Assembly (NCBI GenBank): GCA_023259375.1
Contig: JAHFQC010000009.1
Coordinates: 31,357 to 95,356 of the forward strand
Reading direction: 5' to 3'
Origin: Alphaproteobacteria bacterium
Lineage (GTDB): Bacteria; Pseudomonadota; Alphaproteobacteria; Micropepsales; Micropepsaceae
DNA length: 64,000 nt
Shown here: piece after piece, positions 134 through 23,514 of the stretch
Numbering within the stretch: position 1 is the stretch's first letter
How the letters are laid out: each line of letters starts with the position of its first letter
The notes under the pieces: model-generated
The model's database searches: none
What the model saw: only the letters and a program-made list of their open reading frames with translations
Told to the model about the DNA's origin: nothing
Position numbers and translations under genes: made by a program

Positions 134-2107
134 CTAGTTCCCGATATTCGCCTTGAGGAACTTCTCCAGTTCGGTCAGCCACTGCACGCGGGATTCCATC
201 TTCTGAAGGTAGTGGCTTTCGCCGGGGATGGTAACTGTGGTCACGCTCTTGCCGGCCTTGCGCAAGGCTTCATCCATCGCTTCGGTTTGGTCGATGCGGA
301 CGGTGTAGTCGTCCTTGCCGTGGACCAGCAGCACTGGAATCTTGATCTTGTCGGCATTCATTGCCGGGGACGCGGCGGCGAGCTTGCCGGCATCCTTGCT
401 GCGATCGCCGATGAAGAGCGACCAGCTCGCGATCATGTCGGAATCCTTGCCGTAGTCCTTGGCGCGGGTGTCGAGGAATTTCTTGAGATCGTAGACACCG
501 GCGCCGCCGACCGCGCAGGCATAGAGATCGGGCGTGAACGCCGCGCCTGATAACGCGGCATAGCCGCCATAGGACCAGCCGGCGATGCAGATGCGCTTGG
601 GATCGGCGATGCCATCGGCGATCAGTTTCTTGACGCCGTCGGTGACGTCGTCCTGCATCTTGCCGCCCCATTCGCCGTAACCGGCTTCGAGGAACTTGCG
701 GCCATAGCCGTCGGAGCCGCGGAAATTTGGCTGCAGCACGGCATAGCCGCGGTTGGCGAGGAACTGCACCATCCAATCGAAGCCGATCTGGTCGCGCGCC
801 ATCGGCCCGCCGTGCGGCATGACGACGACGGGGAGATTTTTCGCGGCCTTGCCGGGCGGCAAGGTGATGTAGGCGGGGATGTCGAGCCCGTCGCGCGCCT
901 TGTAGGGGTACGGTTTCATTTCGCCGAGCTGGTTTTCCTCAAGCTCGTAGCTCGATGCGATCGGCGAGGCGCTGTGCTTGACCCGGTCGAGCAGGAAGTA
1001 GGTGGGCGGGAATTTCGGTCCTTCGACCGAGAGAATGACCTTGGTTTTGGCCGTGTCCCAACTGCCGGCATGCACCGTGTTGCCCGGAAAGGCGCCATCG
1101 AGCCCGCGCTGCAAGGCCTGCATATCTTCGTCAAAATAGTGATCGGCTTCCCGGTCGGCAATGACGGTGACGCCGAGAATGCGATGATCCCAGGGATCGC
1201 GCTGGGCAGCCCCGATGTCGTATTTGGGATCGGAAAAGATCGGCGTCTGTTTGCCGTCGGCAACGTCGCGCGACACCAGTCCGGTGGTCTTGGCATCGCC
1301 GAACTGTTCGGTTTCGATAAATCCCTTGCCGTCGCGGGTGAGGCCCAGGACATTGATGCCGTTCATGCCGAGCGAGCTGGCGGATTGAATCTCTTTCCAT
1401 TCGTCGTTGGCGTTGACGAGCAGATGGTCCAACGGCGGGTTGAGCGACTTGTCGAGCCGTCCGACGATCTTGCCGTGGCCGTCCATGATCCATTCCCCGG
1501 TCTGGGGACCGCCGACGGCAACACGTTCGGATGTGCCGTCCTTGACGTTGACGCGAAACATCGAATAGCGGAACGCTTGGCCTTCATAGTTGCGCAGCGC
1601 CGCGTTGTTGGCGTTGTCGAACATCGGCATGTAGATGTGGTCGGGATCGTCCATCGCCATGTCGCTGATCGTCGCCGTGGCGTAGTTGATGTCCCGCGCG
1701 GCATTGTCCGAGAACATCACCGCCATGTTCTGGCCTTTGGTGTCGACCGAGATCGTCCGGTACCAGGGTTTCACGTTTTCGCCCCAGAACCGCATGTTGA
1801 CGTTGACGGTGAGGAGCAGGCGCTCGTTGTTCGCCCACAGCGCCCGGACGAGGAAGCCCTGATCAATCGGAATCCCGACCGCTGGCACGCCGACGGGATC
1901 GAGGGTGCGGACCACCGCGATGCGCTTGCCGTTATGGACTTCGATGCTGGCGAGATGTTTGCCGTCGGGGGACAGCGCCGGAGCGCTCAGCTCTTTCTGG
2001 ACCGCAAAGGCCTGCACGGGGGGCTGGGCGGGCGGGGTTTGGGCTGACGCGGTAGCAAACGACACCAGCGCATACGCCACAGCGCATGCCCAAAGACGGA
2101 CGTACAT
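134..2107 (-). CDS. Exported S9 family (prolyl oligopeptidase-like) serine peptidase
   Basis: 657 aa. Residues 1-22 form a signal peptide ending near ATASAQ, so the enzyme is likely periplasmic. The middle (about 40-380) is the expected beta-propeller-type region, starting with the TolB-like stretch APALSPDGKHLASIE. The C-terminal alpha/beta-hydrolase domain carries the nucleophile elbow GWSYGGYAA (Ser near 511), the acid in HGKDDYTV (near 597) and the histidine in GESHYLQ (near 628), a complete triad. Acyl-peptide or oligopeptide hydrolysis is the family role; the substrate is unknown. ATG at 2107 has a strong GGGGGGC Shine-Dalgarno. The next gene upstream is a paralogue with an almost identical catalytic block and the same C-terminus FLKANIGN. 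Confidence 0.9.
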   Translation of the reverse strand: MYVRLWACAVAYALVSFATASAQTPPAQPPVQAFAVQKELSAPALSPDGKHLASIEVHNGKRIAVVRTLDPVGVPAVGIPIDQGFLVRALWANNERLLLTVNVNMRFWGENVKPWYRTISVDTKGQNMAVMFSDNAARDINYATATISDMAMDDPDHIYMPMFDNANNAALRNYEGQAFRYSMFRVNVKDGTSERVAVGGPQTGEWIMDGHGKIVGRLDKSLNPPLDHLLVNANDEWKEIQSASSLGMNGINVLGLTRDGKGFIETEQFGDAKTTGLVSRDVADGKQTPIFSDPKYDIGAAQRDPWDHRILGVTVIADREADHYFDEDMQALQRGLDGAFPGNTVHAGSWDTAKTKVILSVEGPKFPPTYFLLDRVKHSASPIASSYELEENQLGEMKPYPYKARDGLDIPAYITLPPGKAAKNLPVVVMPHGGPMARDQIGFDWMVQFLANRGYAVLQPNFRGSDGYGRKFLEAGYGEWGGKMQDDVTDGVKKLIADGIADPKRICIAGWSYGGYAALSGAAFTPDLYACAVGGAGVYDLKKFLDTRAKDYGKDSDMIASWSLFIGDRSKDAGKLAAASPAMNADKIKIPVLLVHGKDDYTVRIDQTEAMDEALRKAGKSVTTVTIPGESHYLQKMESRVQWLTELEKFLKANIGN

Positions 2108-2198
2108 GGAATGCCCCCCAAGATGACGCGCGCATCATTCCGTACCCGTCACGCCGTAGCAAGGTGTGCGGGTGCCGCAAGTCCCCGGCGTGCCGCCC

Positions 2199-4154
2199 TC
2201 AATTGCCGATATTCGCTTTCAGAAACTTCTCCAGTTCGGTCAACCAGCGGACGCGGTTTTCTTGCGACTGCAGCTTATGGGTTTCGTTGGGGACGCGGAC
2301 GAACGTCACCTTCTTGCCCGCCTTCTTCAGCGCTTCTTCCATGCGTTCGCTTTGCTGGACCGGCACGGTGGAATCGGCTTCGCCATGCATCAAGAACACC
2401 GGAGCCTTGAATTTGTCGGCATGCTTGGCGGGCGAAACGTCGTCCAGTTTCTGGGCTTCCTTCCAGCGGTCGCCGATATACATCCGCTCGGCGGAACCCA
2501 GCCAAGAGTCCTGGCCGCCGGTCTTGGCCAGTAGCGCGTTCAGGTCGGTGACCGGCGCCATCGCAGCGACACAGGCATAAAGATCGGGCGTGAATGCGCC
2601 GCCGGCGAGAGCCGCATAACCGCCGTAAGACCAGCCGGCGATACAGATGCGCTTAGGATCGGCGATGCCATCGGCGATCAGCTTTTTCACGCCGTCGGTG
2701 ATGTCGTCTTGCATCTTCAGGCCCCATTGTCCGTAACCGGCTTTTTCGAACGCCTGTCCGTATCCGATGGAGCCGCGGAAATTGGGCCTGAGAACGGCAT
2801 AGCCGCGGTTGGCGAGGAACTGGCTCAGCCAATCGAAATCCATGTCGTCGCGGGCTTGCGGTCCGCCGTGCGGCAGGATCACGACCGGCAGCTTTTTCGC
2901 CTCCTTGCCGGGCGGCACCGTCAGATACGCCGGTATTTTGAGGCCGTCGCGCGCCGTGTAGTCATAGACGCGGACTTCGCCCAGATCGGTCGGCGTCACA
3001 TTGGTATACGTCCGCCCCAGCTTCTGTAGTGTCTTGGCCTGCTGGTTGTAGAGATAGAATATCATCGGCTGGCGTGGGCCTTCGACACTGAACACGAATT
3101 TGTTGCGGACGACATCCCAGGTCTGAAGCAGCACCGACATGCCGGGGAAATCCGCTTCCAGCTTGTCGTGCACCTGCTTCAGCGCCGGATCGAAAAGGAC
3201 CTCATTGGCCGCATGCGAAATGTAGGACGCGCCGACCACGCGGCCGGTCCACACGTCTCTGAGCGCGCCGGTAACGTCGTAGAGGGGATCGTAATAGAGA
3301 TCGGTCTGCTTGCCGTCGCTCAAGGACAGCAGGCTCAGCCCCTTGGTGCCGGTCCGCTCCGAAAGCACGTTGCCCTGGACCAGCGATTTGGCATCCATCG
3401 ACGGCCCGGCAATGCCATAGCCTTGTCCCGACGAGGCATCGATCGACGCCACTTCGTGCCAGCTGCCGCCGTTATAGGCGATCAAATGATCCCGGAGGGG
3501 CTCGGTCGTCTCGTCGATGCGCGCCAGCACATTGCCCGTGCCGTCCATGACGAAACGCTCGGTCTTGTTGGTGCCGTTCTCGACCATGGTGCCGCGGCCG
3601 GTATTGACGTTCACGCGAAAAAGCCGGTTGCGCACGTCGGGAGCGGTCATCATGCCGTAATTGGCCCACAGCGGCATGTAGATGTTGTCGGGTTCGTTCA
3701 AAGCGAGATCGACGACGGTCGCCGTCGATCCGTTGACGAGATGCTTGTCTTCGATGTTGTTGAACAACGCCGTGGGATTCTGGCCGTCGGCATCGACGAT
3801 GACGCCGCGATACCAAGCGTCGGGGCCGCTGCCCCAGATTCCGGCGTTGAGATTGATGGTGAGCATCAGCCGGCGGTCGTTCACCCATTGGGCGTGAACG
3901 ATGAAGCCTTCTTCGAACGGAATGATGACCGGCGCGCTGCCTGGGGGATCGAGCGTCCAGACCGTTGCGACCGGCCGTCCGTTGCGCGACTGGATGAGGG
4001 CGAGGTGCTTGCCGTCGGGCGACAGCGACGGACTGGACATCGCCGGAAGCGCGCCGAAAGCCGCGACGGGCGGCGGCGGTGAAACACCCTGTGCGGTGGC
4101 ACCGCCGACAAATCCGGCGAGCGCGAAAGCGCCCGCGACACAACAGAATTTCAT
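2199..4154 (-). CDS. Exported S9 family (prolyl oligopeptidase-like) serine peptidase, tandem paralogue
   Basis: 651 aa, same strand and architecture as its neighbour. It has a signal peptide (MKFCCVAGAFALAGFVGGATAQ), a propeller-type N-terminal part beginning with SPSLSPDGKHLALIQ, and a hydrolase domain with GWSYGGYAA (Ser near 505), HGEADSTV (Asp near 588) and NETHKLQ (His near 622). The start at 4154 follows a GGGGGGC ribosome site. The segment around the nucleophile is nearly identical to the paralogue downstream while the N-terminal halves differ strongly. It is probably a periplasmic peptidase used for growth on peptides; specificity cannot be read from the sequence. Confidence 0.9.
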   Translation of the reverse strand: MKFCCVAGAFALAGFVGGATAQGVSPPPPVAAFGALPAMSSPSLSPDGKHLALIQSRNGRPVATVWTLDPPGSAPVIIPFEEGFIVHAQWVNDRRLMLTINLNAGIWGSGPDAWYRGVIVDADGQNPTALFNNIEDKHLVNGSTATVVDLALNEPDNIYMPLWANYGMMTAPDVRNRLFRVNVNTGRGTMVENGTNKTERFVMDGTGNVLARIDETTEPLRDHLIAYNGGSWHEVASIDASSGQGYGIAGPSMDAKSLVQGNVLSERTGTKGLSLLSLSDGKQTDLYYDPLYDVTGALRDVWTGRVVGASYISHAANEVLFDPALKQVHDKLEADFPGMSVLLQTWDVVRNKFVFSVEGPRQPMIFYLYNQQAKTLQKLGRTYTNVTPTDLGEVRVYDYTARDGLKIPAYLTVPPGKEAKKLPVVILPHGGPQARDDMDFDWLSQFLANRGYAVLRPNFRGSIGYGQAFEKAGYGQWGLKMQDDITDGVKKLIADGIADPKRICIAGWSYGGYAALAGGAFTPDLYACVAAMAPVTDLNALLAKTGGQDSWLGSAERMYIGDRWKEAQKLDDVSPAKHADKFKAPVFLMHGEADSTVPVQQSERMEEALKKAGKKVTFVRVPNETHKLQSQENRVRWLTELEKFLKANIGN

Positions 4155-4225: not shown

Positions 4226-5065
4226 TTACTGGACCGCTTTGCCGTCGATCTTCAGCGACGACGCCACCGCGGCGATCACGCCGTACTGCGTGCTGGCCCA
4301 GACGCGTAAGGGGACGGCGAGGGTGCGGCCCGCTTCCTTGCTCGGGAACAGTCCCATCCAGACATTGATCGACGGGAAGTTGGTGTCGTGCAGAACGCGC
4401 GGCTTATAGCCGGAGATCTGCTTGTACTCGATGGTGCAGAGCAGGGCGGGGCCCTTGTAGAGGCCGTTATCCATCTTGATGTCGACCGGCTTCACTTTCG
4501 TGAGGCTGACATTGTAGCGGCGGCGGCCGTCGTACACCGGCGCTTTGACCGCACACGGATTGCCCGGTTCGGCACCGACGCCCGAAGCGATATAGACCAC
4601 CGCGCTCAAGGGATCGAAGGTGCCTTTCTTCTCTTCCGGTTTCACTTCGTAGCCGGTGGTCGGATAGCTCGGGTTGGCATAGAGGCGCACCGGTTCGCCG
4701 TTCTCGTAGGTCAGCGCCACTTCCTGATGATTGGCCTTGTGGCCGGTGTAGAAGGAATCGTAGTTCGCGACCTGCATCGACTTCTTGTCGAGTTTGCCCG
4801 ACGAGGTCGCCTGGATCTGCGATTTCCAGAACACGTTCACCACGCCGCTGGTCTCGAGGTTGGAAGTGACCCGGTATTTGTCGCCGGTGAAGCGCGCGTC
4901 CATGTCGACGTGACCGAGGCCGAGACCGGCGGCGTAGAGACTCATGGCGAGCTGCATGCTGCCGCCGCCCGCCGCGGGCTCCGACGAGGCCCCGCCGGCC
5001 GCCCAGGCCTGCGAAACGGGTACGGTGACAAGGCTCAAGGCAATCAAGGCTGTACGCAGGTGCAT
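4226..5065 (-). CDS. DUF3108 domain-containing exported protein
   Basis: 279 aa from the start chosen here. The ORF opens 13 codons earlier, but the internal MHLRTALIALSLVTVPVSQAWA begins a proper signal peptide, so I use that ATG. The rest matches the DUF3108 type: an extracytoplasmic beta-rich protein with a YDSFYTGHKAN segment, a DPLSAVVYIA core, a DGRRRYNVSL strand and a PRVLHDTNF C-terminal part. DUF3108 proteins in alphaproteobacteria are often near rpmB, as here (divergent). The function is unknown. The family name is recalled from pattern, not from a search. Confidence 0.75.
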   Translation of the reverse strand: MHLRTALIALSLVTVPVSQAWAAGGASSEPAAGGGSMQLAMSLYAAGLGLGHVDMDARFTGDKYRVTSNLETSGVVNVFWKSQIQATSSGKLDKKSMQVANYDSFYTGHKANHQEVALTYENGEPVRLYANPSYPTTGYEVKPEEKKGTFDPLSAVVYIASGVGAEPGNPCAVKAPVYDGRRRYNVSLTKVKPVDIKMDNGLYKGPALLCTIEYKQISGYKPRVLHDTNFPSINVWMGLFPSKEAGRTLAVPLRVWASTQYGVIAAVASSLKIDGKAVQ

Positions 5066-5260
5066 CGGGATCACTCGCCAGTTCCGGCCGCGGTTTTTCC
5101 GCAAATTCGTGCCAAAAATCCAGGCCGCGGCAACTTTGCCGCGCCCCGAGGTTCTATAATGACCGGGTCGGCCTTGTCGAACGATGGCTACGTGAGAAAT
5201 TCGTTAAGTGGGCCAAAGGGCTGCCGGATGGGGCCGGTTGCGCCCATTGTCGCTTCCGAC

Positions 5261-5288
5261 TTGACCCAGGGCGCCTGCGCAATTAAGA
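5261..5288 (+). promoter_or_regulatory. Possible sigma70-type promoter of rpmB
   Basis: TTGACC at 5261 is followed 16 nt later by TTAAGA at 5283, about 75 nt before the rpmB start. The -10 is poor, so this is only the best candidate in the 250-bp gap between the DUF3108 gene and rpmB. Confidence 0.3.
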
Positions 5289-5361
5289 GAGCGCCTCTTT
5301 ACGAATGATCCGTGGGGTTGGGCCTCACGGAGCCTAGACTTAATGCCCCGAGGATAATGCC

Positions 5362-5655
5362 ATGTCTCGCCGCTGCGAATTGACCGGAAAAACCCTCCTG
5401 GTTGGCCACAATGTCAGCCATGCCAATAACAAGACCAAGCGGGTGTTCCGTCCGAACCTGCAGGTCATTTCGCTCGCCAGCGACGCCCTGCGCGAGACCG
5501 TCAAGCTGAAGATCTCGATGAATGCCCTGCGCACCATCGACCGGCTCGGCGGCATTGATGCCTTCCTGCTCAAGGCCAAGGATGCGACCCTTTCGCCGCG
5601 GGCGCTTCGCCTGAAGCGTGCGATCGCAAAAAAGACTGCCGCTGCGGCCGCCTAG
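5362..5655 (+). CDS. rpmB: 50S ribosomal protein L28
   Basis: 97 aa. The N-terminus [20 protein letters not shown] and the following [13 protein letters not shown] are diagnostic for bacterial L28, as is the later [10 protein letters not shown]-type segment (here [16 protein letters not shown]). The length is typical for alphaproteobacteria. ATG at 5362 has AGGA 8 nt upstream. It binds 23S rRNA in the large subunit. It stands alone, without rpmG beside it. An 8-bp hairpin with a GCAA loop (5692-5711) lies 37 nt downstream but has no U-run, so I do not call it a terminator. Confidence 0.97.
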
Positions 5656-5842
5656 CCTTATTCGCGCCTTAATTTTTAATCGCTGTAAACTCTGTTTCGG
5701 CAACGAAACGGCATAGCACCTGCAACAATTCTCCCGTACTGTCTCAAAATAGGCCAAGCCGAACGGCTGGCCGCGGGGTGTGGTGGGCAAGGTGCGGGCG
5801 TTTAGGCGTGATGTGATCACGGGCCGGATTGGCGGCCTGAAC

Positions 5843-6541
5843 ATGGCTTCCGCAGAGCGGGGGCCTTACCGGTTAAGAACAGCCAGTGATGCTCCCTATA
5901 TGGGAGCGTACGGCTATGGTCGTCATGAAAGTTGGCTGGAGAAGGCCGGCGCCGCGGTCGGGGCGGTGGTGCGACTGCTCTTGTGCACGCTGGTGTTGTG
6001 CGCCTGGCTGACGGCGACGTTCCTCTATCGCGATACCCAAGTGGACCTGTTCGGTTTCGGGACGAGCCTAGCCTACGTCCTGGTTCCGCTCGGCTTCTAT
6101 TGTGTCTTCCTGACCAACCGGCGTTACGGACCCGCCTATGCCTTTGCGCAGGTGGTGACGGGGCTGGCGCTGATGGCGACTCTGGTGCTGTTCGCCCGCG
6201 ATGCGCTGGCTGAGATCGTGCCGCTTGATTCGGCTCCTACGGTGCGCGAGACGGCGGCGTTCGGCAGCGCCTTCTTCCTGGCGAGCTTTGTCTCCATCGT
6301 GACTTTCGACGGTGCCCGCGGTCCGCATTGGTGGACGGCGCCGCTGTTCGGCTTTCTCACCGCCGCGATCGTGTTCGCGACCATCTTCTTCGCCGTGCTT
6401 TATACCGGCACCGGCAAGTCGTGGCTCGCCGATTGTGTCACCTACATGGGACTGATCGCCGGCGAAGGATTGCTGCTGCTGATTCCGTTCTGGGCGATGC
6501 GCCGGATGGTGCCGCCGGTGGCGGGCTTCGGCGGCTACTGA
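5843..6541 (+). CDS. Polytopic inner-membrane protein, possibly VUT/vitamin-uptake-like
   Basis: 232 aa from the ATG used here; the ORF track starts 21 codons earlier at a GTG, which has a poorer context. Six hydrophobic segments are visible (about VVRLLLCTLVLCAWL, FGTSLAYVLVPLGFYCVFL, VVTGLALMATLVLF, FGSAFFLASFVSIV, FGFLTAAIVFATIFFAV and YMGLIAGEGLLLLIPF). The stretch LTNRRYGPAYAFAQVV resembles the loop of the VUT/YhhQ-type family of alphaproteobacteria, but I hold this loosely. It could equally be an uncharacterised conserved membrane protein. It is followed by a strong terminator. Confidence 0.75.
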   Translation: MASAERGPYRLRTASDAPYMGAYGYGRHESWLEKAGAAVGAVVRLLLCTLVLCAWLTATFLYRDTQVDLFGFGTSLAYVLVPLGFYCVFLTNRRYGPAYAFAQVVTGLALMATLVLFARDALAEIVPLDSAPTVRETAAFGSAFFLASFVSIVTFDGARGPHWWTAPLFGFLTAAIVFATIFFAVLYTGTGKSWLADCVTYMGLIAGEGLLLLIPFWAMRRMVPPVAGFGGY

Positions 6542-6619: not shown

Positions 6620-8059
6620 CTATTTCCCTTTTGCCACGGTCTCATCCGGCACGAACGTTCCGCCGTGGAGCAGGCTGGCGAAGATTTCCTCGGAGCGCTG
6701 CAGCCAGGCCGACTGTTTGTCGGGGGTGAAGTTGTTGTGCTCCGATTCCGGCATCGGGATGATCTCGTGCGGCGCCGGAATGCGGTTCACCGCCGACAGG
6801 ATGCTGGCGGGCGGGCAGACGGTGTCGATGAAGCCGATTGCGGCCAGGGTTGGCGCCGTGATCTTAGGGGCGAAGTTCGCCGTATCGAAATAGGACGCCG
6901 TCGCCGCCACCGTCGGATTGTCCACCGCCCAATTGGGATACGCCGGCAGACGGCCATGCAACGCCGCCTGGGTGTCGCCGCCTGACGGCTCGTTGACCAG
7001 CACCGCGGTGACCTTGCCGGGATTGAGACCGGCCGTCACGAGGCTCTGGTGGCCGCCCATCGAGGTGCCGGTGATGACGACGGTCTTCTTGTTCCACTCC
7101 GGCAGCGAGCGCACCCAATCGAGCGCGCGGGTGTCGCGCAGATACATGGCGAGGAAATACGAGGTCTCGCGCGAGGTGTTGCCGACAGCCGGATACCCCT
7201 GCGGCGCGCCGTCGGCGCTATCCGGCGCCATGTCGTGGGAATCGACATTAAAGCACAGCCACCCCGCCTGGGCGCGGACGGCGCAGTTCCACGGGATCAG
7301 CGCATACACGCCCGCCCACTGGTACTGCACCATGATCGGGAACGGACCTTTCTTGTCCGGCACCGCGAGATAGCCCTGGACGTGCGAATTCAGGCTGTCG
7401 AGTTTGACCTTGTAGAACTTGATGCCGGGCACCGGCGCCGGGATTTCGGTCAACACCGGATTGACCGGCACTTTCGCCAACTCGGCCAGCTTGCCCGCCC
7501 AGAAGGCATCGAAATCGGCCGGGGCCGGAGCACTCGGTGCGATCTTCGACGGCTCGACCGCGGCACCGACGATCGCCAGATGCGACAGGATCGGCGGCAG
7601 ACCGGTGACCGGCGTCGTCGCCGCGCACGGCTCGGAGATCAGGCACAGGTCAGGATACTTGGCGAAGATCGGCTTCAGTGCCTTGTCTTTCTTCGCCACC
7701 ACCGCTTTCAGGGTGGCGTTGATCTTGGCGGCTTCCTCGGGCGTCGGACCGGGCACCGGCGCGCGGTCGATGGTGACGTAGACCATGCCGGGCTTATCGA
7801 GGGTCACCGCTATCTCACCGCTGCCCTTGGAAATATCGAGCGTGCCGTTGCCGATCTCGGCCGAGCCGTTGGCGCGGATCGTGTAGGTGTAGAGCGCTTT
7901 CGCTGTCGCGCCAGGGGCGGGCGTCACCACCCAGCCGACCTTTTCACCGACCGCATAGAGGCCGTTGCCGTTGATCGGCTTGAAGTTCAATTCGGCGGCG
8001 GGCGCTGCCGTTGTGGCCGCAATCAGAGCGGCGAATGCGAACGCAAAGCGGAATTTCAC
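6620..8059 (-). CDS. Exported acetylxylan esterase-like (AXE1) alpha/beta hydrolase
   Basis: 479 aa with signal peptide MKFRFAFAFAALIAATTAAPAAE. Residues about 25-135 form an N-terminal beta domain; about 190-470 is an AXE1/cephalosporin C deacetylase-type hydrolase. The nucleophile elbow is GTSMGGHQS (Ser near 328), with the acid in GFIDTVCPP (near 408) and His in ESEHNNF (near 443). The family deacetylates acetylated xylan and small acetyl esters. The signal peptide places it in the periplasm or outside. It ends convergent with the terminator of the membrane gene. The substrate is inferred from family only. Confidence 0.85.
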   Translation of the reverse strand: MKFRFAFAFAALIAATTAAPAAELNFKPINGNGLYAVGEKVGWVVTPAPGATAKALYTYTIRANGSAEIGNGTLDISKGSGEIAVTLDKPGMVYVTIDRAPVPGPTPEEAAKINATLKAVVAKKDKALKPIFAKYPDLCLISEPCAATTPVTGLPPILSHLAIVGAAVEPSKIAPSAPAPADFDAFWAGKLAELAKVPVNPVLTEIPAPVPGIKFYKVKLDSLNSHVQGYLAVPDKKGPFPIMVQYQWAGVYALIPWNCAVRAQAGWLCFNVDSHDMAPDSADGAPQGYPAVGNTSRETSYFLAMYLRDTRALDWVRSLPEWNKKTVVITGTSMGGHQSLVTAGLNPGKVTAVLVNEPSGGDTQAALHGRLPAYPNWAVDNPTVAATASYFDTANFAPKITAPTLAAIGFIDTVCPPASILSAVNRIPAPHEIIPMPESEHNNFTPDKQSAWLQRSEEIFASLLHGGTFVPDETVAKGK

Positions 8060-8127: not shown

Positions 8128-9450
8128 TCAGGCTTTGCGGCGGCGAGCGAAGAATCCGAACGCGCCGAGGCCGGTCAGGAGAAGCAGACCGCTCGCCGGT
8201 TCGGGAACTTCCGACGCCGAAATCGCGCCGGGCTTGAACATGTCGCTCAAGTCGTTGACCGGCGCGGTGTCGCGGGGATCGCGCGGCACGGCATTGCCGA
8301 GGCCGTACAGCTCTTCCATCGTCACGAGATCGGAGGTGTGCGTGTAGTACTGGCTGCTCTCGTAGGCATTGCCCTTGGCGAGCGGCGAGATGACGATTTC
8401 GGGGATGGTGTAGGCCGAGGTGTCGCCGTCTTCGGTCTCGTCGAACCACAGGACAATCGCGCCGTTATCCTTGTAAGCCTGCGACGCCATGATCATCGGA
8501 ACGATCTGGGAGAGGAAATTGTCGCCCGCGGCGATGGCAGCCTGATCGCCGTCGTAATGCACGCCCTTGTAATCGAAGCCGCCGTCGAGGGCGGAATGCA
8601 TGTCGTTGTACTGGTCCGGGGTGATCAGGTTGTAGCGCGCCACCGAATTGCTGGCGAGGTCGGCGGCGAACTGCTGCAGCGGCGCATAGCGGCCGGCGAG
8701 CGGATTGGCGGCATCCTGCGTGCCGGTCCCGGCCGCATTGGTGGTGACGCCGCCGTTGACGCTGTGATCGCTGATGCCGTTGGTCTGGTCAAAGTACAGA
8801 TGGCCGTCGTGCTTGGTGGCGAAATTGTACTGATGGCTGCCGTTATAGGCGTTGGTGTAATCGGCCGAGGTGCCGCGCAAGCTGACCAGCGGCACGGTCC
8901 AATCGCTTTTCGCGGCGACGGTGCTGGTGAGGTTCGAGCCGTTGCCGTTGATCGCGCCGTTGGTGGTGCGGTCGCCCGCGGTGGCGTTCTGGCCGCCGGT
9001 GGTCTTGAGATCGATATCTTCCTGGTACGACTTCCAGCTCAGCCCCTTGGCCTGCAGCGCGCACGACAGGCACGGCGCATGGCCGACTGCGGCGCTGTTC
9101 TTGGCCGGATCGGCATCGTTGGCGACGCCGAAATTGCTGCCGCCTTCCTGCCAGATATAGCTCGGCTCCGAGGGATGGATGTGGGCGCCGGTGTTCGACA
9201 GCACGTTCTGGTAATTGCTCGCCCACGAGGTCTGCTTGGCATTGGCGTTACCGGGCGTCATCAGGCTGTTCAGATAGGGCGCCGCCGGATTGTTCTTCAG
9301 TGCCTGCGGATCGCTCATGCCGGACGGCTGGGTGAGGTTGTGGTTCTCCATTTCGATATAGAACACGGTCTTGATCGGTGCGGCCGGCGCGGGCGTCATC
9401 ACCGCCGCGGAGGCGAGGAGGGCGAGCGCAAGACAACGAAGATGCATCAT
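8128..9450 (-). CDS. PEP-CTERM anchored phosphoesterase (acid phosphatase-like)
   Basis: 440 aa. I start at the ATGATG at 9450, which has AGGGGACC just upstream, rather than 11 codons earlier. A signal peptide (about 1-23) is followed by KTVFYIEMENHNLTQ, the metal-binding start of the PF04185 phosphoesterase family. A later LWFDETEDGD supplies further acidic ligands. The C-terminus VPEPASGLLLLTGLGAFGFF followed by ARRRKA is a textbook PEP-CTERM signal: PEP motif, one membrane span, basic tail. It should be processed by an exosortase, which is not in this window. Phosphatase activity is inferred from family. Confidence 0.85.
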   Translation of the reverse strand: MMHLRCLALALLASAAVMTPAPAAPIKTVFYIEMENHNLTQPSGMSDPQALKNNPAAPYLNSLMTPGNANAKQTSWASNYQNVLSNTGAHIHPSEPSYIWQEGGSNFGVANDADPAKNSAAVGHAPCLSCALQAKGLSWKSYQEDIDLKTTGGQNATAGDRTTNGAINGNGSNLTSTVAAKSDWTVPLVSLRGTSADYTNAYNGSHQYNFATKHDGHLYFDQTNGISDHSVNGGVTTNAAGTGTQDAANPLAGRYAPLQQFAADLASNSVARYNLITPDQYNDMHSALDGGFDYKGVHYDGDQAAIAAGDNFLSQIVPMIMASQAYKDNGAIVLWFDETEDGDTSAYTIPEIVISPLAKGNAYESSQYYTHTSDLVTMEELYGLGNAVPRDPRDTAPVNDLSDMFKPGAISASEVPEPASGLLLLTGLGAFGFFARRRKA

Positions 9451-9570
9451 AAAGGTCCCCTGAATCAGGAATGGTGGCTGCACGGGGACAGTCGGGCCGG
9501 TTTGTGTCTGCGGCCGGATACTTTTTTGTCAGTATTGCAAACCGATTAACTTCGGTCGAAGTTTCTCACG

Positions 9571-9693
9571 TCAACGTGCGCGGGCGCGCTTGCCGCTGCG
9601 GCGGGTTGTGCGGCGATCGGCTTCCTCGGCGAAAAGGCCGATGAGCTGATCGGTCATGGCGCCGCCGAGCTGTTCGATATTAACGATGATGAT
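9571..9693 (-). pseudogene. Remnant of the cobT 3' end (duplicate tail)
   Basis: The minus-strand ORF ending at 9571 has the C-terminus [20 protein letters not shown], then RR..RR.GKRA, matching the end of the CobT encoded at 12638. At nucleotide level 9582-9676 and 12652-12746 differ at about 7 of 95 positions by eye, and similarity fades by about 9693. Beyond that the ORF is unrelated to CobT and there is no VWA domain, so this is a fragment and not a gene. The two tails are direct repeats flanking the autotransporter gene. Confidence 0.85.
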
Positions 9694-9985
9694 CGTGGTG
9701 GATGGGTGGGCCAAGGTCATCGGCGCAATTGTTTCGCAACTACAAGCCAATTTTCCAATAGTTAGGCAGAGATGTTTTGCAAACAAACATGATGGCAGAT
9801 GCACTGAATATCATTTGCAGAACAGTACACGAAAAAGCAAAGCGCGCGCCGCTCAGTGAACGTTCAGTTGTAAGAGCTGCGCCCGAAGCATTTAATGTAA
9901 TTGATGATGGCGCGCGTTCCGTTGCTCGCCGTGCAATACATGGCACAGTCGGTTCAGCGCGCGGGCGTATCAAAGGGGGGACACT
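9694..9985. other. AT-richer leader of the autotransporter gene
   Basis: About 290 bp between the cobT remnant and the autotransporter start. Base composition is visibly poorer in G+C than the surrounding genes. Overlapping short ORFs on both strands (9740-9973, 9777-10076) have no recognisable features and I do not call them. It should hold the promoter of the autotransporter, but I cannot point to convincing -35/-10 boxes. Confidence 0.5.
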
Positions 9986-12634
9986 ATGCGCCGTTCAAAC
10001 ATGCTCGCAATCTTGCTCTCTACAGCTTCGGCCGCGGTTCTTTCGACATCGCTTGATGCCTCGGGGGCAACGATAAATATCGCGCCCGGCCAGACGTACA
10101 ATATCGCGGCCTCTACGTCGGACGATGTCGTCAATAACGGCCATCTCGTAATTGGGACGGGGAGGCCTTCGACGATCATGCTCAGCGGAGATGTTTCAGG
10201 CGCTGGCTATGTTTTTTTGAATTTCAGTGCTTTTGGTAGTAATGTGATCCTAACCGGCACAAACACCTATACCGGAGTAACGTCCGTACTCGGTACGTTG
10301 TCGATCGGCAATGGCGGAAATAGCGGGACCCTTGCTGGCGATGTCTATATTCTGAATCTCGGGGAAGTCGTATTCAATCGCTCTGGTACCTACTCTTATG
10401 CTGGAACCATCACAGGCTTTGCTCTGCGGCCGTCGCCGACAATAGGGGGGGCGGTTTATGTGACTGGCGGCGGCACGATGATTTATACAGGAACCGCCGT
10501 AGCGACTGTCATCGTTGAGTCCGGTACGACACTGCAAGTCGGGGACGGCGGAACCGCCGGCAAACTCGATTATGCCGTCGCGAATGACGGTACGCTGATC
10601 TATAATCAGTCAGGCACCAACTACGTCGACATTGAGATCGGCGGTACCGGCAGCGTCATATTGCGGGGCGGCGGCACTTACATATTCGGCCAGGAATTCT
10701 ATCAAATTAGATCCTCAAAGACCTATTCAGGTGATACCATCGTTGAACATGCAACGCTGGAAGTTCCCGAGCAGGATAGTTGTTACCCTGAGCTAAACTG
10801 TCTATCGACCGTATCTAGCATCGTGCTCAATAACGCGAGTGATGTCAGTCTCGTTTTTGAAGACTTGGCCTGGGCAAGAGTGAAGTCTCTGTTCGGTGGT
10901 GGTTCGTTGGGCGGAAACACGCTGCTCAATGGGCGTTCGGACTTGATCGTCATAAATGGCGGAAATTATGCGGGCGTGATCTCAGGTTCAGGAACGTTCA
11001 GTGTCGAGAGCGGCACAATGGTTCTCTCCGGTGACAATACGTATACCGGCGGTACGAGAATATATCGTGATGCCACACTGCAAGTTGGCACTGGCGGGGC
11101 ATCGGGTTCGATCGTGGGAGACGTTGAGAACGAAGGAACGCTCATTATCGACCGTTCCGGAGTGTTGCTACTGTCCGGCAAGATGGAAGGACCCGGAACA
11201 TTACAGAAAACCGGCAGTGGCACGTTGGTGTTGAACGGTGTGAACGCTTACACGGGTTTGACGACAGTCTTTGCCGGCACGCTCGAAGTCGGCGACACCG
11301 CTCATCCTACTGCGACGCTCGCCGGCGACGTGTCTGTGGCGGCTGGCGCGGTTCTGAGCGGTCATGGACAGGTTCTCGGTACGATCAGTGGGGCCGGTAC
11401 AGTCAGGCCCGGCGGATCCGTCGGTACGTTGACAGTCGGCAGTTACACGCAGAATTCCGACAGTACGCTTGCCATCAACGTGGAGCCGAACGGGAGCGCC
11501 GCACTTAATGTCACCCATACGGCGACCCTCGCCGGCAAACTCGCAATCACGCTTGCGCCAGGCATGGCCCCGTGGGCATCTGAAAGCATTTTGACGGCCG
11601 GAACGATTGTCGGGCAGTTTTCGTCCATTGCGGTCTCAGATCCCGCGTCCGACATTTATGCGGTCGACTATCTGTCCAATGCCGTTGTGCTGACCGTCGA
11701 GGCCCGCCGAGCAGGGCAGATCTATGGTGATGTGATCTCGGCTGCGTTGGACGGCGGTCATGCGCTCAACGGTTTGCTGCTCGACCATCGCACCTCCTGT
11801 CAATCTGGTCAGAGCTGGTGTGTATGGGGGAGCGGCTTCGGGGGCATGGGATGGTTCGATACCAATACGGCCGAGGCAAATGCATTCAAGTTTAAGCGGG
11901 CTGGCGCAATCGCGGGCCTCGACGCCGTTTTTGCAGGCGGTCAAACTATCGGCTTTGCTGTATCGTTCAACCAGACCTCGGTGACGGTCTCTCAGGGTTG
12001 GGGCAGTGCCCTTATCAGCTCTGTGTCAGGTGCGGTGACGGGCTCCGCACCGTTATGGCTTGGCGAGATCAGAGCCAGCCTCTTCGGTACAATCAATAAT
12101 GCTTCCAGTCGCCGCGATCTAGGATCGTTCGGTATCGCCGAAGGGAGCCCCGATAGCTATACCTATGGGGGCGCAGCGGAATATGGGGTCAGTTTGTTCG
12201 GCGGCTCGGTAGTGCCATTGGCGGGTATCAGTATCGTTGACGTGCACCAGAAAGCGATGGCCGAAGAGGGTGTAGGAACCCTTGGGTATTCGCAGCAGTC
12301 TACGGACTTTACCTCGGTCCGCGGCGAACTCGGTGTGCGCCTGCAGCGTTCGTTTACGACTGCCGGTGGTGTGAATCTTGTTCCGCATCTGCGCATGAGT
12401 ATGCAGCAGAAACTAAACGAGGCTGATCAAGCCGTCGCACTCGAGCTGAATGGTCATCCGGAGAGCAGCTACTACCCGTCCTTTGCTGAACCAGCCATTA
12501 CAGCGTTTGCGGCAACGGCCGCTCTAGACATCTCGTCCGGACAAAACTGGGATGTGCGGGTATCGACCGGAACGAGGCTTAGCGCTCGGGAAAAGCAGGT
12601 TGTGATCGGAGCGGGCGGTTCGTATCGCTTCTGA
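9986..12634 (+). CDS. Type V autotransporter with beta-strand repeats
   Basis: 882 aa. ATG at 9986 follows a strong AAAGGGGGGA site. Signal peptide about 1-27. Residues about 28-560 are a passenger built from autotransporter-associated beta-strand repeats, for example TNTYTGVTSVLGTLSIGNGG, DNTYTGGTRIYRDATLQVG and VNAYTGLTTVFAGTLEVGD. Residues about 620-882 look like the outer-membrane beta-barrel, ending in GAGGSYRF with the required terminal aromatic residue. The passenger may be an adhesin; no protease motif was seen. Codon use is less GC-biased than in neighbouring genes. The gene ends 3 nt from the cobT stop, tail to tail, and is flanked by the duplicated cobT tail, which suggests insertion. 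Confidence 0.9.
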   Translation: MRRSNMLAILLSTASAAVLSTSLDASGATINIAPGQTYNIAASTSDDVVNNGHLVIGTGRPSTIMLSGDVSGAGYVFLNFSAFGSNVILTGTNTYTGVTSVLGTLSIGNGGNSGTLAGDVYILNLGEVVFNRSGTYSYAGTITGFALRPSPTIGGAVYVTGGGTMIYTGTAVATVIVESGTTLQVGDGGTAGKLDYAVANDGTLIYNQSGTNYVDIEIGGTGSVILRGGGTYIFGQEFYQIRSSKTYSGDTIVEHATLEVPEQDSCYPELNCLSTVSSIVLNNASDVSLVFEDLAWARVKSLFGGGSLGGNTLLNGRSDLIVINGGNYAGVISGSGTFSVESGTMVLSGDNTYTGGTRIYRDATLQVGTGGASGSIVGDVENEGTLIIDRSGVLLLSGKMEGPGTLQKTGSGTLVLNGVNAYTGLTTVFAGTLEVGDTAHPTATLAGDVSVAAGAVLSGHGQVLGTISGAGTVRPGGSVGTLTVGSYTQNSDSTLAINVEPNGSAALNVTHTATLAGKLAITLAPGMAPWASESILTAGTIVGQFSSIAVSDPASDIYAVDYLSNAVVLTVEARRAGQIYGDVISAALDGGHALNGLLLDHRTSCQSGQSWCVWGSGFGGMGWFDTNTAEANAFKFKRAGAIAGLDAVFAGGQTIGFAVSFNQTSVTVSQGWGSALISSVSGAVTGSAPLWLGEIRASLFGTINNASSRRDLGSFGIAEGSPDSYTYGGAAEYGVSLFGGSVVPLAGISIVDVHQKAMAEEGVGTLGYSQQSTDFTSVRGELGVRLQRSFTTAGGVNLVPHLRMSMQQKLNEADQAVALELNGHPESSYYPSFAEPAITAFAATAALDISSGQNWDVRVSTGTRLSAREKQVVIGAGGSYRF

Positions 12635-12637
12635 CGG

Positions 12638-14533
12638 CTAAGCGCGCTTGTGGGCGCGCTTGCCGCCGCGGCGGGTTTTGCGGCGGTCAGCTTCTTCGGC
12701 GAAAAGGCCGATGAGCTGGTCGGTCATGGCACCGCCGAGCTGTTCGGCGTCGACGATGGTGACGGCGCGGCTGTAATGGCGGGTCACGTCGTGGCCGATA
12801 CCGATGGCGACGAGTTCGACCGGCGAGCGGTTCTCGATGTAGTCGATCACCTTGCGGAAATGGCGTTCGAGATAGTTGCCGCTGTTGACCGACAGCGTGG
12901 AATCGTCGACCGGGGCGCCGTCGGAGATCACCATCATGATCTTGCGCTGTTCGGGCCGGGCGGCGAGGCGGCTGAACGCCCACATCAAGGCTTCGCCGTC
13001 GATGTTTTCCTTCAAGAGGCCTTCGCGCATCATCAGGCCAAGATTCTTACGGGCGCGGCGCCACGGCTCGTCGGCGTTCTTGTAGATGACATGGCGCAGG
13101 TCGTTGAGACGGCCGGGATTGAGCGGCTTTTCGGCCTTGATCCACTTCTCGCGGGCTTGGCCGCCTTTCCACGCCCGCGTCGTGAAGCCGAGAATCTCGA
13201 CCTTGACCGAGCAGCGTTCCAGCGTCCGCGCCAGAATATCGGCGCACATCGCCGCGATCATGATCGGGCGGCCGCGCATCGAACCGGAATTGTCCAAGAG
13301 CAGCGTCACCACGGTATCGCGGAACTCGGTGTCCTTCTCCATCTTGAAGGCGAGCGGCTGCATCGGATCGATCACCACGCGGGTCAGTCGCGCCGAGTCG
13401 AGCAGGCCTTCTTCGAGATCGAAATCCCAGGAACGGTTCTGCTGCGCCTGCAACAGCCGCTGCAGCTTGTTGGCCAGCCGCGCCACCACGGCTTGCGCCT
13501 GTTGCAGCTGCTGGTCGAGGAAGCTGCGCAGCCGCGTCAGTTCCTCCGGGTCGCACAGTTCGGTGGCGTGGACGACTTCGTCGAATTCGGTGGTGTAGAC
13601 CTTGTAGTCCCAGTTGGTGCTGTCGCCGTCAGGCAGGTCGGGCCGCCACGGCTTGACGCCTTCGTCCGGCGTTTCGGCGTCGCCCATCTCGGCGTCGTCG
13701 GCGCGCTGCTCGGCGGCAGCCTGATCGCTGGTCTCGCCTTCGGTTTCGCGCAGTTCGGCATCGCTGGTGGCGCCTTCGCCTTGCGAATCCTCGCCTTCGC
13801 CGCCTTCCTGGTTCTGTTCGGCGTTCTCGGATTCTTCGCCGCCTTGCTCGGAGTCTTCGTTCTCCTCGCCTTCCTCGTAGAGATCGAGGTCGCGCAGCAC
13901 CATGCGGGTCTGCTTGGCGAACGCCGCCTGATCGCGTAGTGCGGGCAGCAGATCGTTGAGCGTCTTGCCGGCGCGGCTCTCGACATAGTCGCGCCACAGC
14001 TCCACGGCGGCCTTGGCCGAGGGCGGCGGCGGGGCGCCGGTAAGTTTCTCGCGCACCAGGATGCCGAGCACGTCGGCGAGCGGCGCTTCCTTGCGGCTGT
14101 GGGCCTTGGCGAGGCCGCGCTGGGCCGCACGGGCTTCGAGCCCGGCCGCGAGATTGGCGGCGACGCCTTCCATCGCCAACGATCCGATCGCTTCGACGCG
14201 CGCCTGCTCGGCGGCTTCGAACAACGCCGCGGCGTCCGGCATCATCGGCTTGTTGGCGCGATGGATCTTGTCGTCGTGATAGGCGAGCTTCAGCGCCTGC
14301 GCATCGGCGGTGCCGCGCAGGATCGCGAGTTCCTTCGGCGAAAATGATTTCGACGGCGCCGGCAGTTGCGCCCGTTTGGGTCCGTTGCCGGCAAAGAACT
14401 TGACCACCGACGACCACCAGGTCGACGGCTCGGTGACATAGGAGACTTCGAGTTCCGGCTCGCCCGCCAACGCCCTCAGCGTGCCGGAGACGGCACGTTT
14501 GACGTCTTCGGTCGGCGAGTCATTGGGATTCAC
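12638..14533 (-). CDS. cobT: Cobaltochelatase subunit CobT
   Basis: 631 aa, usual length for CobT. An N-terminal alpha-helical part is followed by a very acidic linker (about 215-300, rich in E/D/Q), then a von Willebrand A domain with the MIDAS motif DNSGSM (near 412) and later SDGAPVDD. With CobS and CobN it inserts Co2+ into hydrogenobyrinic acid diamide in aerobic cobalamin synthesis, driven by ATP. Its start overlaps the cobS stop by 4 nt, so the two are translationally coupled. No other cob genes are present. Its last codons are duplicated at 9571-9693. Confidence 0.95.
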
Positions 14534-22588: not shown

Positions 22589-23514
22589 GTGCCGCTCTGG
22601 TCGAGAGTTTTCTCGACATGATGAGTGCCGAGCGCGGCGCCGCCGCCAACACCCTGGCCGCGTATGAACGCGACCTCGGCGATTTCTGTGGCTGGCTGGC
22701 GGCGCGCGGGCTGAGCGTCAAGGCGTGCGGCCGCGACGAGGTTCGTCACTACCTGCAGAGCCTGTCAGCCTCGGGCATGGCGGGGTCGTCACAGGCACGC
22801 AAGCTGTCGAGCCTCAGGCAGTTCTTCGGTTTTCTGTATACGGACGGAATCCGTGGCGACGATCCCACCGTGGCGGTCGATGCGCCCAAGCGCGGCCGGC
22901 CGCTGCCGAAAGTCCTGACCCGCGAGGACATGGATGCGCTGCTGACGGCCGCCGCCGTGCGCGCCGCCAAGAGCGAGGAGGGCGTTCGCCTCAAATGCAT
23001 CGTCGAGATGCTGTACGCCTCCGGCTTGCGCGTGTCGGAACTGGTGACGCTGCCGCTGCTGGCGGTGAAGAACCGCGACGGCGTCATGCTGGTCAAAGGC
23101 AAGGGCGGCAAGGAGCGTCTAGCGCCGCTCAATCCCGCCGCGCGCGAGGCCATCGCCGCGTGGCTCGCGGTGCGGGAAAATTTCCTGCCCAAAGGCGAGA
23201 CCCGCAAAACGGCGGAGCGTTTTCTGTTTCCGTCACGCGGGGTGGAAAGCCATCTGACCCGCCGCCGGCTGCACCAGATGCTCAAAGAACTGGCAGTCGA
23301 GGCCGGGCTCGATCCCGACAAGCTGTCGCCGCACGTCCTGCGCCACGCCTTTGCGACCCATCTGGTGGAAGGCGGCGCCGACTTGCGCAGCGTGCAAACC
23401 CTTCTGGGGCATGCCGATATTGCTACGACCCAGATCTACACCCACGTCGCGCGCGACCGCTTGACGGCCACCGTGACCGCCGCCCATCCGCTGGCGCGCA
23501 AGCGGCCGCGCTGA
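22585..23514 (+). CDS. xerD: Tyrosine recombinase XerD (chromosome dimer resolution)
   Basis: 309 aa. An N-terminal SAM-like core-binding domain (about 1-90) and a catalytic domain with Arg in YASGLRVSELVTLPL, Lys in KGKGGKERLAPL, His-x-x-Arg in LSPHVLRHAFATHL, the LLGHADIATTQIYTHV block and the nucleophile Tyr in that block. With XerC and FtsK it resolves chromosome dimers at dif. The start is fixed by the ATGA overlap with the upstream gene. XerD rather than XerC is favoured by the aroK neighbourhood. Confidence 0.94.
   Translation: MSAALVESFLDMMSAERGAAANTLAAYERDLGDFCGWLAARGLSVKACGRDEVRHYLQSLSASGMAGSSQARKLSSLRQFFGFLYTDGIRGDDPTVAVDAPKRGRPLPKVLTREDMDALLTAAAVRAAKSEEGVRLKCIVEMLYASGLRVSELVTLPLLAVKNRDGVMLVKGKGGKERLAPLNPAAREAIAAWLAVRENFLPKGETRKTAERFLFPSRGVESHLTRRRLHQMLKELAVEAGLDPDKLSPHVLRHAFATHLVEGGADLRSVQTLLGHADIATTQIYTHVARDRLTATVTAAHPLARKRPR

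Follow-up and report, generated by a model that had tools for sequence, protein, structure and literature searches.

The cobT gene end occurs twice around an autotransporter gene

The window analysed here, a 64,000-nt stretch of a Rhizomicrobium genome (labelled G000), contains the vitamin B12 gene cobT, intact and on the minus strand, an autotransporter gene converging on it and, on the far side of the autotransporter, a second and partial copy of the cobT 3' end. The features of the locus are the following:

5780–6541, plus strand: conserved convergent neighbour ("c2"), which bounds the variable site throughout the genus, as judged from cobT–c2 gap counts
6620–8059, minus strand: AXE1-type esterase, which adjoins cobT in G007, G019 and G062 (neighbourhood comparison)
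8128–9483, minus strand: PEP-CTERM phosphoesterase (PF04185, PF07589), 93% identical in R. electricum L035 and G061, where it adjoins cobT at the empty site
9484–9570, no strand: native cobT–phosphoesterase intergenic region, which can be aligned to its R. electricum L035 counterpart at the empty site
9571–9675, minus strand: cobT remnant (tail A), the last 34 codons and an in-frame TGA, beside the native intergenic region
9676–9985, no strand: leader of 310 nt and low GC (about 51%), without a substantial congener match and read as incoming DNA
9986–12634, plus strand: autotransporter (the cargo), an intact frame of 882 aa with PATR repeats and a beta-barrel (PF03797, PF12951, TIGR02601) and atypical GC3 and codon use
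12638–12745, minus strand: functional cobT tail (tail B), the repeated counterpart of the remnant, with synonymous differences only in the core
12638–14533, minus strand: cobT, intact cobaltochelatase subunit gene, above the TIGR01651 equivalog cut-off and 91% identical to that of G061

The two tails form a direct repeat of 111 nt without gaps (9582–9692 and 12652–12762; 88% identity, spacing 3070, BLAST E 6.7e-37), and a search across the whole genome found it at these two places, with no third copy. Counted in the cobT frame, the tails differ at about 7 of the last ~95 alignable positions, so that the initial annotation, which had described a cobT tail occurring twice with about 7 differences in 95 positions, is borne out by both the repeat and the count. 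The outer copy encodes 34 residues and then a stop, its own in-frame TGA at 9573–9571, and the working tail encodes 35 residues and then a stop. In the 24 nt beyond 9675 the remnant has 10–12 differences from all compared cobT genes, as against 1–3 differences among those genes themselves, and we therefore delimit the remnant as 34 codons plus TGA (9571–9675). Its 5' edge lacks the otherwise nearly invariant TIVDAEQ motif, at a place where 57 of 59 genus loci share one 15-residue stretch. Most likely, judging from this comparison, the cobT homology of the remnant begins at 9675, with the GAA codon of EQLGGAMT; the remnant that had been placed at 9571–9693 thus exists, with an outer limit set slightly too generously, since the homology ends at 9675 and does not extend over 123 nt.

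Within a conserved 60-nt core, tail A and tail B differ at five positions, all five of them third codon positions and synonymous. Pairwise comparison of tail A, tail B and the R. electricum tail over the same core gave 5, 5 and 6 differences, making the three about equidistant.

Rhizomicrobium electricum has an empty site

In R. electricum (L035 and G061), cobT is followed directly by the PEP-CTERM phosphoesterase (93% amino acid identity), with a single tail, and the intergenic stretch between the two genes aligns with the sequence beside the remnant. Because the remnant's flank matches this empty-site intergenic region, the alignment identifies the remnant as the original cobT end, and the working tail together with the autotransporter as the addition. 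The earlier proposal that foreign DNA entered the 3' end of cobT and restored the gene is supported by this empty site in a relative. In three further genomes (G007, G019 and G062) the phosphoesterase is absent as well, and cobT is followed by the esterase.

The inserted autotransporter is compositionally foreign

The autotransporter stop lies 3 nt from the cobT stop (12638–12640), and the frame, which is intact, is the one gene of lower GC between the tails, as had been claimed. It has a GC content of 56.3% and a GC3 of 0.605, where cobT, cobS, the phosphoesterase and the esterase all have a GC3 of about 0.84, and in codon fit it falls some two standard deviations short of the average for the window's frames. 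The gene is compositionally foreign. The C-terminal barrel (PF03797) and the passenger repeats (PF12951), both above cut-off, place the product among type V autotransporters, and the closest relatives found are other Rhizomicrobium autotransporters at ~37–38% identity. Ten related Rhizomicrobium autotransporters have GC3 values of 0.66–0.84, and the low GC3 of the cargo is therefore not simply a family trait. No relative at E ≤ 1e-40 was found outside this genome among 385 sampled genomes of the class, no match to a solved structure was found for the autotransporter, and the leader (9676–9985) had no substantial match among 69 genomes of the genus.

A second scar points to an imported tail

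The same anatomy was found in another Rhizomicrobium species (G004), where a copy of the cobT 3' end of 333 nt (5710–6042 and 10827–11159 of L113, G004:C32:50000-64000) is 93.4% identical to its counterpart at a spacing of 5,117 nt. The G004 scar is an independent instance. Its cargo, which has no relation to the window's autotransporter, comprises a winged-helix/TPR regulator and a tectonin-domain protein, and the repeat is about three times as long (333 nt against 105 nt, with two cases only). In G004 each tail has the other as its closest relative (93%, against ~83% for the next species), and for that reason the G004 donor would have been a close relative; either of the two copies may be the native one.

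The initial annotation had left two origins for the second tail, an old duplication or a tail from a relative, and the codon positions of the differences favour the latter. If the cobT end had been duplicated within the genome, the autotransporter having landed between the two copies and the outer one having decayed, the missing TIVDAEQ motif at the remnant's 5' edge would be accounted for, as it would by a joint. In a decay-after-duplication model of our own, in which one copy remains a gene under selection, about 60% of changes are expected to be nonsynonymous. The G004 tails show 22 differences, of which 20 are third-position and synonymous and two nonsynonymous, and two or fewer nonsynonymous changes would have P ~1e-6 under this model. 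The window's core differences are synonymous at 5/5 sites, and R. electricum carries a single tail at the same site. An old duplication of the cobT tail is thus argued against by the codon positions in both genomes, and we regard it as very unlikely. Rather, we strongly infer from the G004 differences that its two tails were both functional alleles while they diverged and came together only afterwards; for the window, the same is suggested by five sites. Probably a relative's cobT tail came in together with the new DNA, and tail B would accordingly be donor-derived or hybrid. Along the cobT body, no donor tract stands out clearly in the divergence profile, and the sites in the tail that are informative for a hybrid pattern are too few to resolve it.

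G004 also bears on the assembly itself. The draft genome that holds the window consists of 155 contigs with an estimated contamination of 2.67%, and the doubled gene end might be a chimera of two strains; on the other hand, no lengthy stretch is shared at the joint at 9675 by which assembly could have been misled, and the same anatomy recurs in this second congener, which makes an artefact highly improbable.

The inserts carry no integrase

No integrase is present in the window insert, which holds the autotransporter alone, or in the G004 insert. The nearest tyrosine recombinase in the window is a conserved housekeeping XerD (22600–23514, above the XerD equivalog cut-off), and in G000, G004, G061 and G007 the nearest such gene lies ~8 kb from cobT on the opposite side, in agreement with the earlier remark that there is no integrase here. 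Viral contigs contained no relative of cobT or of the autotransporter, phage records gave no match to the cobT tail, and the plasmid matches listed were near-complete or distant cobT-type genes.

The insert is flanked by direct repeats of a gene end with cobT restored, and this outer geometry, a restored gene end with a diverged second tail, is what a site-specific integrative element with the cobT 3' end in its attachment region would leave if stripped to one gene, as prophage e14 does in icd, where the insert at the gene 3' end provides the gene with 163 bp of slightly divergent end sequence, the old end being displaced as a stub (PMC6379469). Two cases at one gene would also fit such an element. 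Unlike e14, a site-specifically integrated prophage, the cobT insert is one gene without an integrase; neither insert contains an integrase or phage gene, so that integrase loss would be required twice, and neither the viral contigs nor the phage records point to a viral source. Moreover, one integrase family would predict similar repeat limits, and the two repeats measure 105 and 333 nt (n=2). We therefore consider a remnant integrative element unlikely. The absence of an integrase and of viral or phage relatives likewise speaks against an autonomous mobile cargo unit for which cobT would be the dedicated landing site, as had been suggested, and so do the different cargo and the threefold longer repeat in G004, cobT being moreover one of two variable junctions nearby. 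A further reading is a family of integrase-less Rhizomicrobium modules that travel with their own cobT 3' end and repeatedly land at cobT by homologous recombination; this we hold to be doubtful, and if it were true, the cobT gene end would be a portable landing pad for small cargo.

A donor fragment may have been added by host recombination

The reading that we prefer, at a probability of about 60%, is that a donor fragment anchored by cobT homology and coming from another Rhizomicrobium lineage was added at the end of cobT by host recombination. We favour donor-fragment addition because the empty site has a matching flank, the tail differences are synonymous-only, G004 offers a second case, the cargo is atypical and no integrase is present. 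Direct observation extends to the repeat, the empty site, the native flank of the stub, the unusual composition, the integrase-free insert and the second congener case; the crossover mechanism and the vehicle described below we infer only. The fragment would have consisted of the end of a donor cobT and the convergent autotransporter gene. It may have been circularised by end-joining inside its cobT piece, with one RecA-type crossover in the tail then integrating the circle, or it may have been joined by homologous recombination at one end and illegitimately at the other. The product in either case would be an unbroken cobT whose tail is donor-derived or hybrid, followed by the new gene and by the displaced tail stub beside the old neighbour. 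The locus does show foreign DNA enclosed by a partly duplicated anchoring gene, as is characteristic of single-crossover or illegitimate recombination, and the circularised single crossover and homology-facilitated illegitimate recombination are close variants, both of which the data fit. The longest identical run shared by the window tails, 23 nt, seems marginal for a crossover inside the tail. The donor arrangement, cobT beside this autotransporter, was not found among the congeners searched.

Possible vehicles are a gene transfer agent or competence. GTA_TIM (PF13547) was found in G000 (C114:22686-23558) and in six of the seven congeners tested, G004 being the one without it, and Rhizomicrobium probably carries a gene-transfer-agent cluster, judging from this domain. 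Gene-transfer-agent particles carry host DNA, whose integration is assisted by DprA and RecA (PMC10883770). ComEC-like genes are present, with matches below the curated cut-off.

Among known systems, the nearest experimental match is in E. coli, where donor fragments that have been trimmed and closed into circles enter by a single crossover, so that 109–950 bp of the gene end become duplicated (PMC3240628). As at cobT, foreign DNA comes to be flanked by a partial duplication of the end of the homology gene with no integrase needed, and at 105 and 333 nt the stubs agree with the E. coli size range and order of parts; the E. coli experiments used a plasmid and identical homology at lacZ, whereas the cobT case is natural, has a diverged tail and is read from its anatomy. 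The T6SS loci of Vibrio, with their orphan 3' ends (PMC5361080), similarly combine homology on one side with a non-homologous join on the other and an old gene end pushed downstream, although there the module replaces an effector gene while old immunity genes stay, and here cobT is functional and the cargo unrelated. Classical cases of homology-facilitated illegitimate recombination usually delete recipient DNA, while no loss is seen at cobT. Hotspots that lack integrases and recombine at the core genes on either side are common (PMC5635113) and resemble the cobT site in that accessory genes come and go between two conserved genes with no recognisable mobile element; they were described within species, whereas our comparison is at genus level, and their usual double recombination is scarless, whereas at cobT a displaced gene end records the event.

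The cobT event is thus of an ordinary kind, well preserved and with an informative scar. It suggests that genes may join a working gene's side, leaving that gene unbroken, with no dedicated integration enzyme, and in two species of one genus both joints, together with a second allele of the gene end, can still be read from the displaced copy. The codon positions could serve as a test applicable to all genomes, in which synonymous-only differences between the two tails of one gene would distinguish an imported tail from a duplication.

The cobT junction is variable and not uniquely so

A cobT-tail scar is present in 2 of ~57 Rhizomicrobium cobT loci. Of 80 loci retrieved for their similarity to cobT (a few from the same species), none had a tail copy up to 6 kb downstream, and in the window no further tail copy was found at E 1e-3 behind the phosphoesterase or esterase. 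No other clear gene-end repeat around cargo was found in 1.15 Mb of three Rhizomicrobium genomes and the fetched loci, where the leftover scan hits resemble paralogues, repeat proteins or palindromic repeats, not every hit having been resolved. One such repeat (L119 of G034, 7634–7755 and 12075–12199), considered as a cobS tail, was rejected: it is a dispersed, intergenic, REP-like palindromic repeat (ACCCTCCCCTTGAGGGAGGGTCGAAA...).

In general, convergent gene ends tolerate insertions, and the convergent junction at cobT has also received other single genes across the genus. The cobT–c2 gap is at most 118 nt in 22 of 42 informative genomes and exceeds 800 nt in 16 of the 42, and the genes at this junction include AXE1 esterase, phytase-like, GDSL, FAD/BBE, DUF711, GNAT and IS4/5-type genes. 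In this turnover of accessory genes between cobT and c2 the site resembles a horizontal-transfer hotspot. The adjacent c2–rpmB gap exceeds 800 nt in 1 of 40 genomes. A second variable junction near cobT lies between rpmB and a DUF gene (window 4226–5655), with a gap above 800 nt in 17 of 50 genus genomes, and because it is equally variable, cobT is not uniquely hot. Judging from these gap counts, the cobT junction gives the impression of tolerating insertions rather than of being a specific attachment site. No RNA families, tRNA genes or sigma-70-like promoters were found at the joint, and no mention of cobT as an integration site was found in the literature.

Three cobT matches, G016:C11:491791-493629, G070:C17:53032-54867 and G085:C22:28031-29857, contain one stop codon each, which may be near-end stops or real defects. 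Elsewhere in the window (516–4154), two adjoining stretches repeat at 72–81% with a spacing of ~2,050 nt and are apparently tandem S9-type peptidase paralogues.
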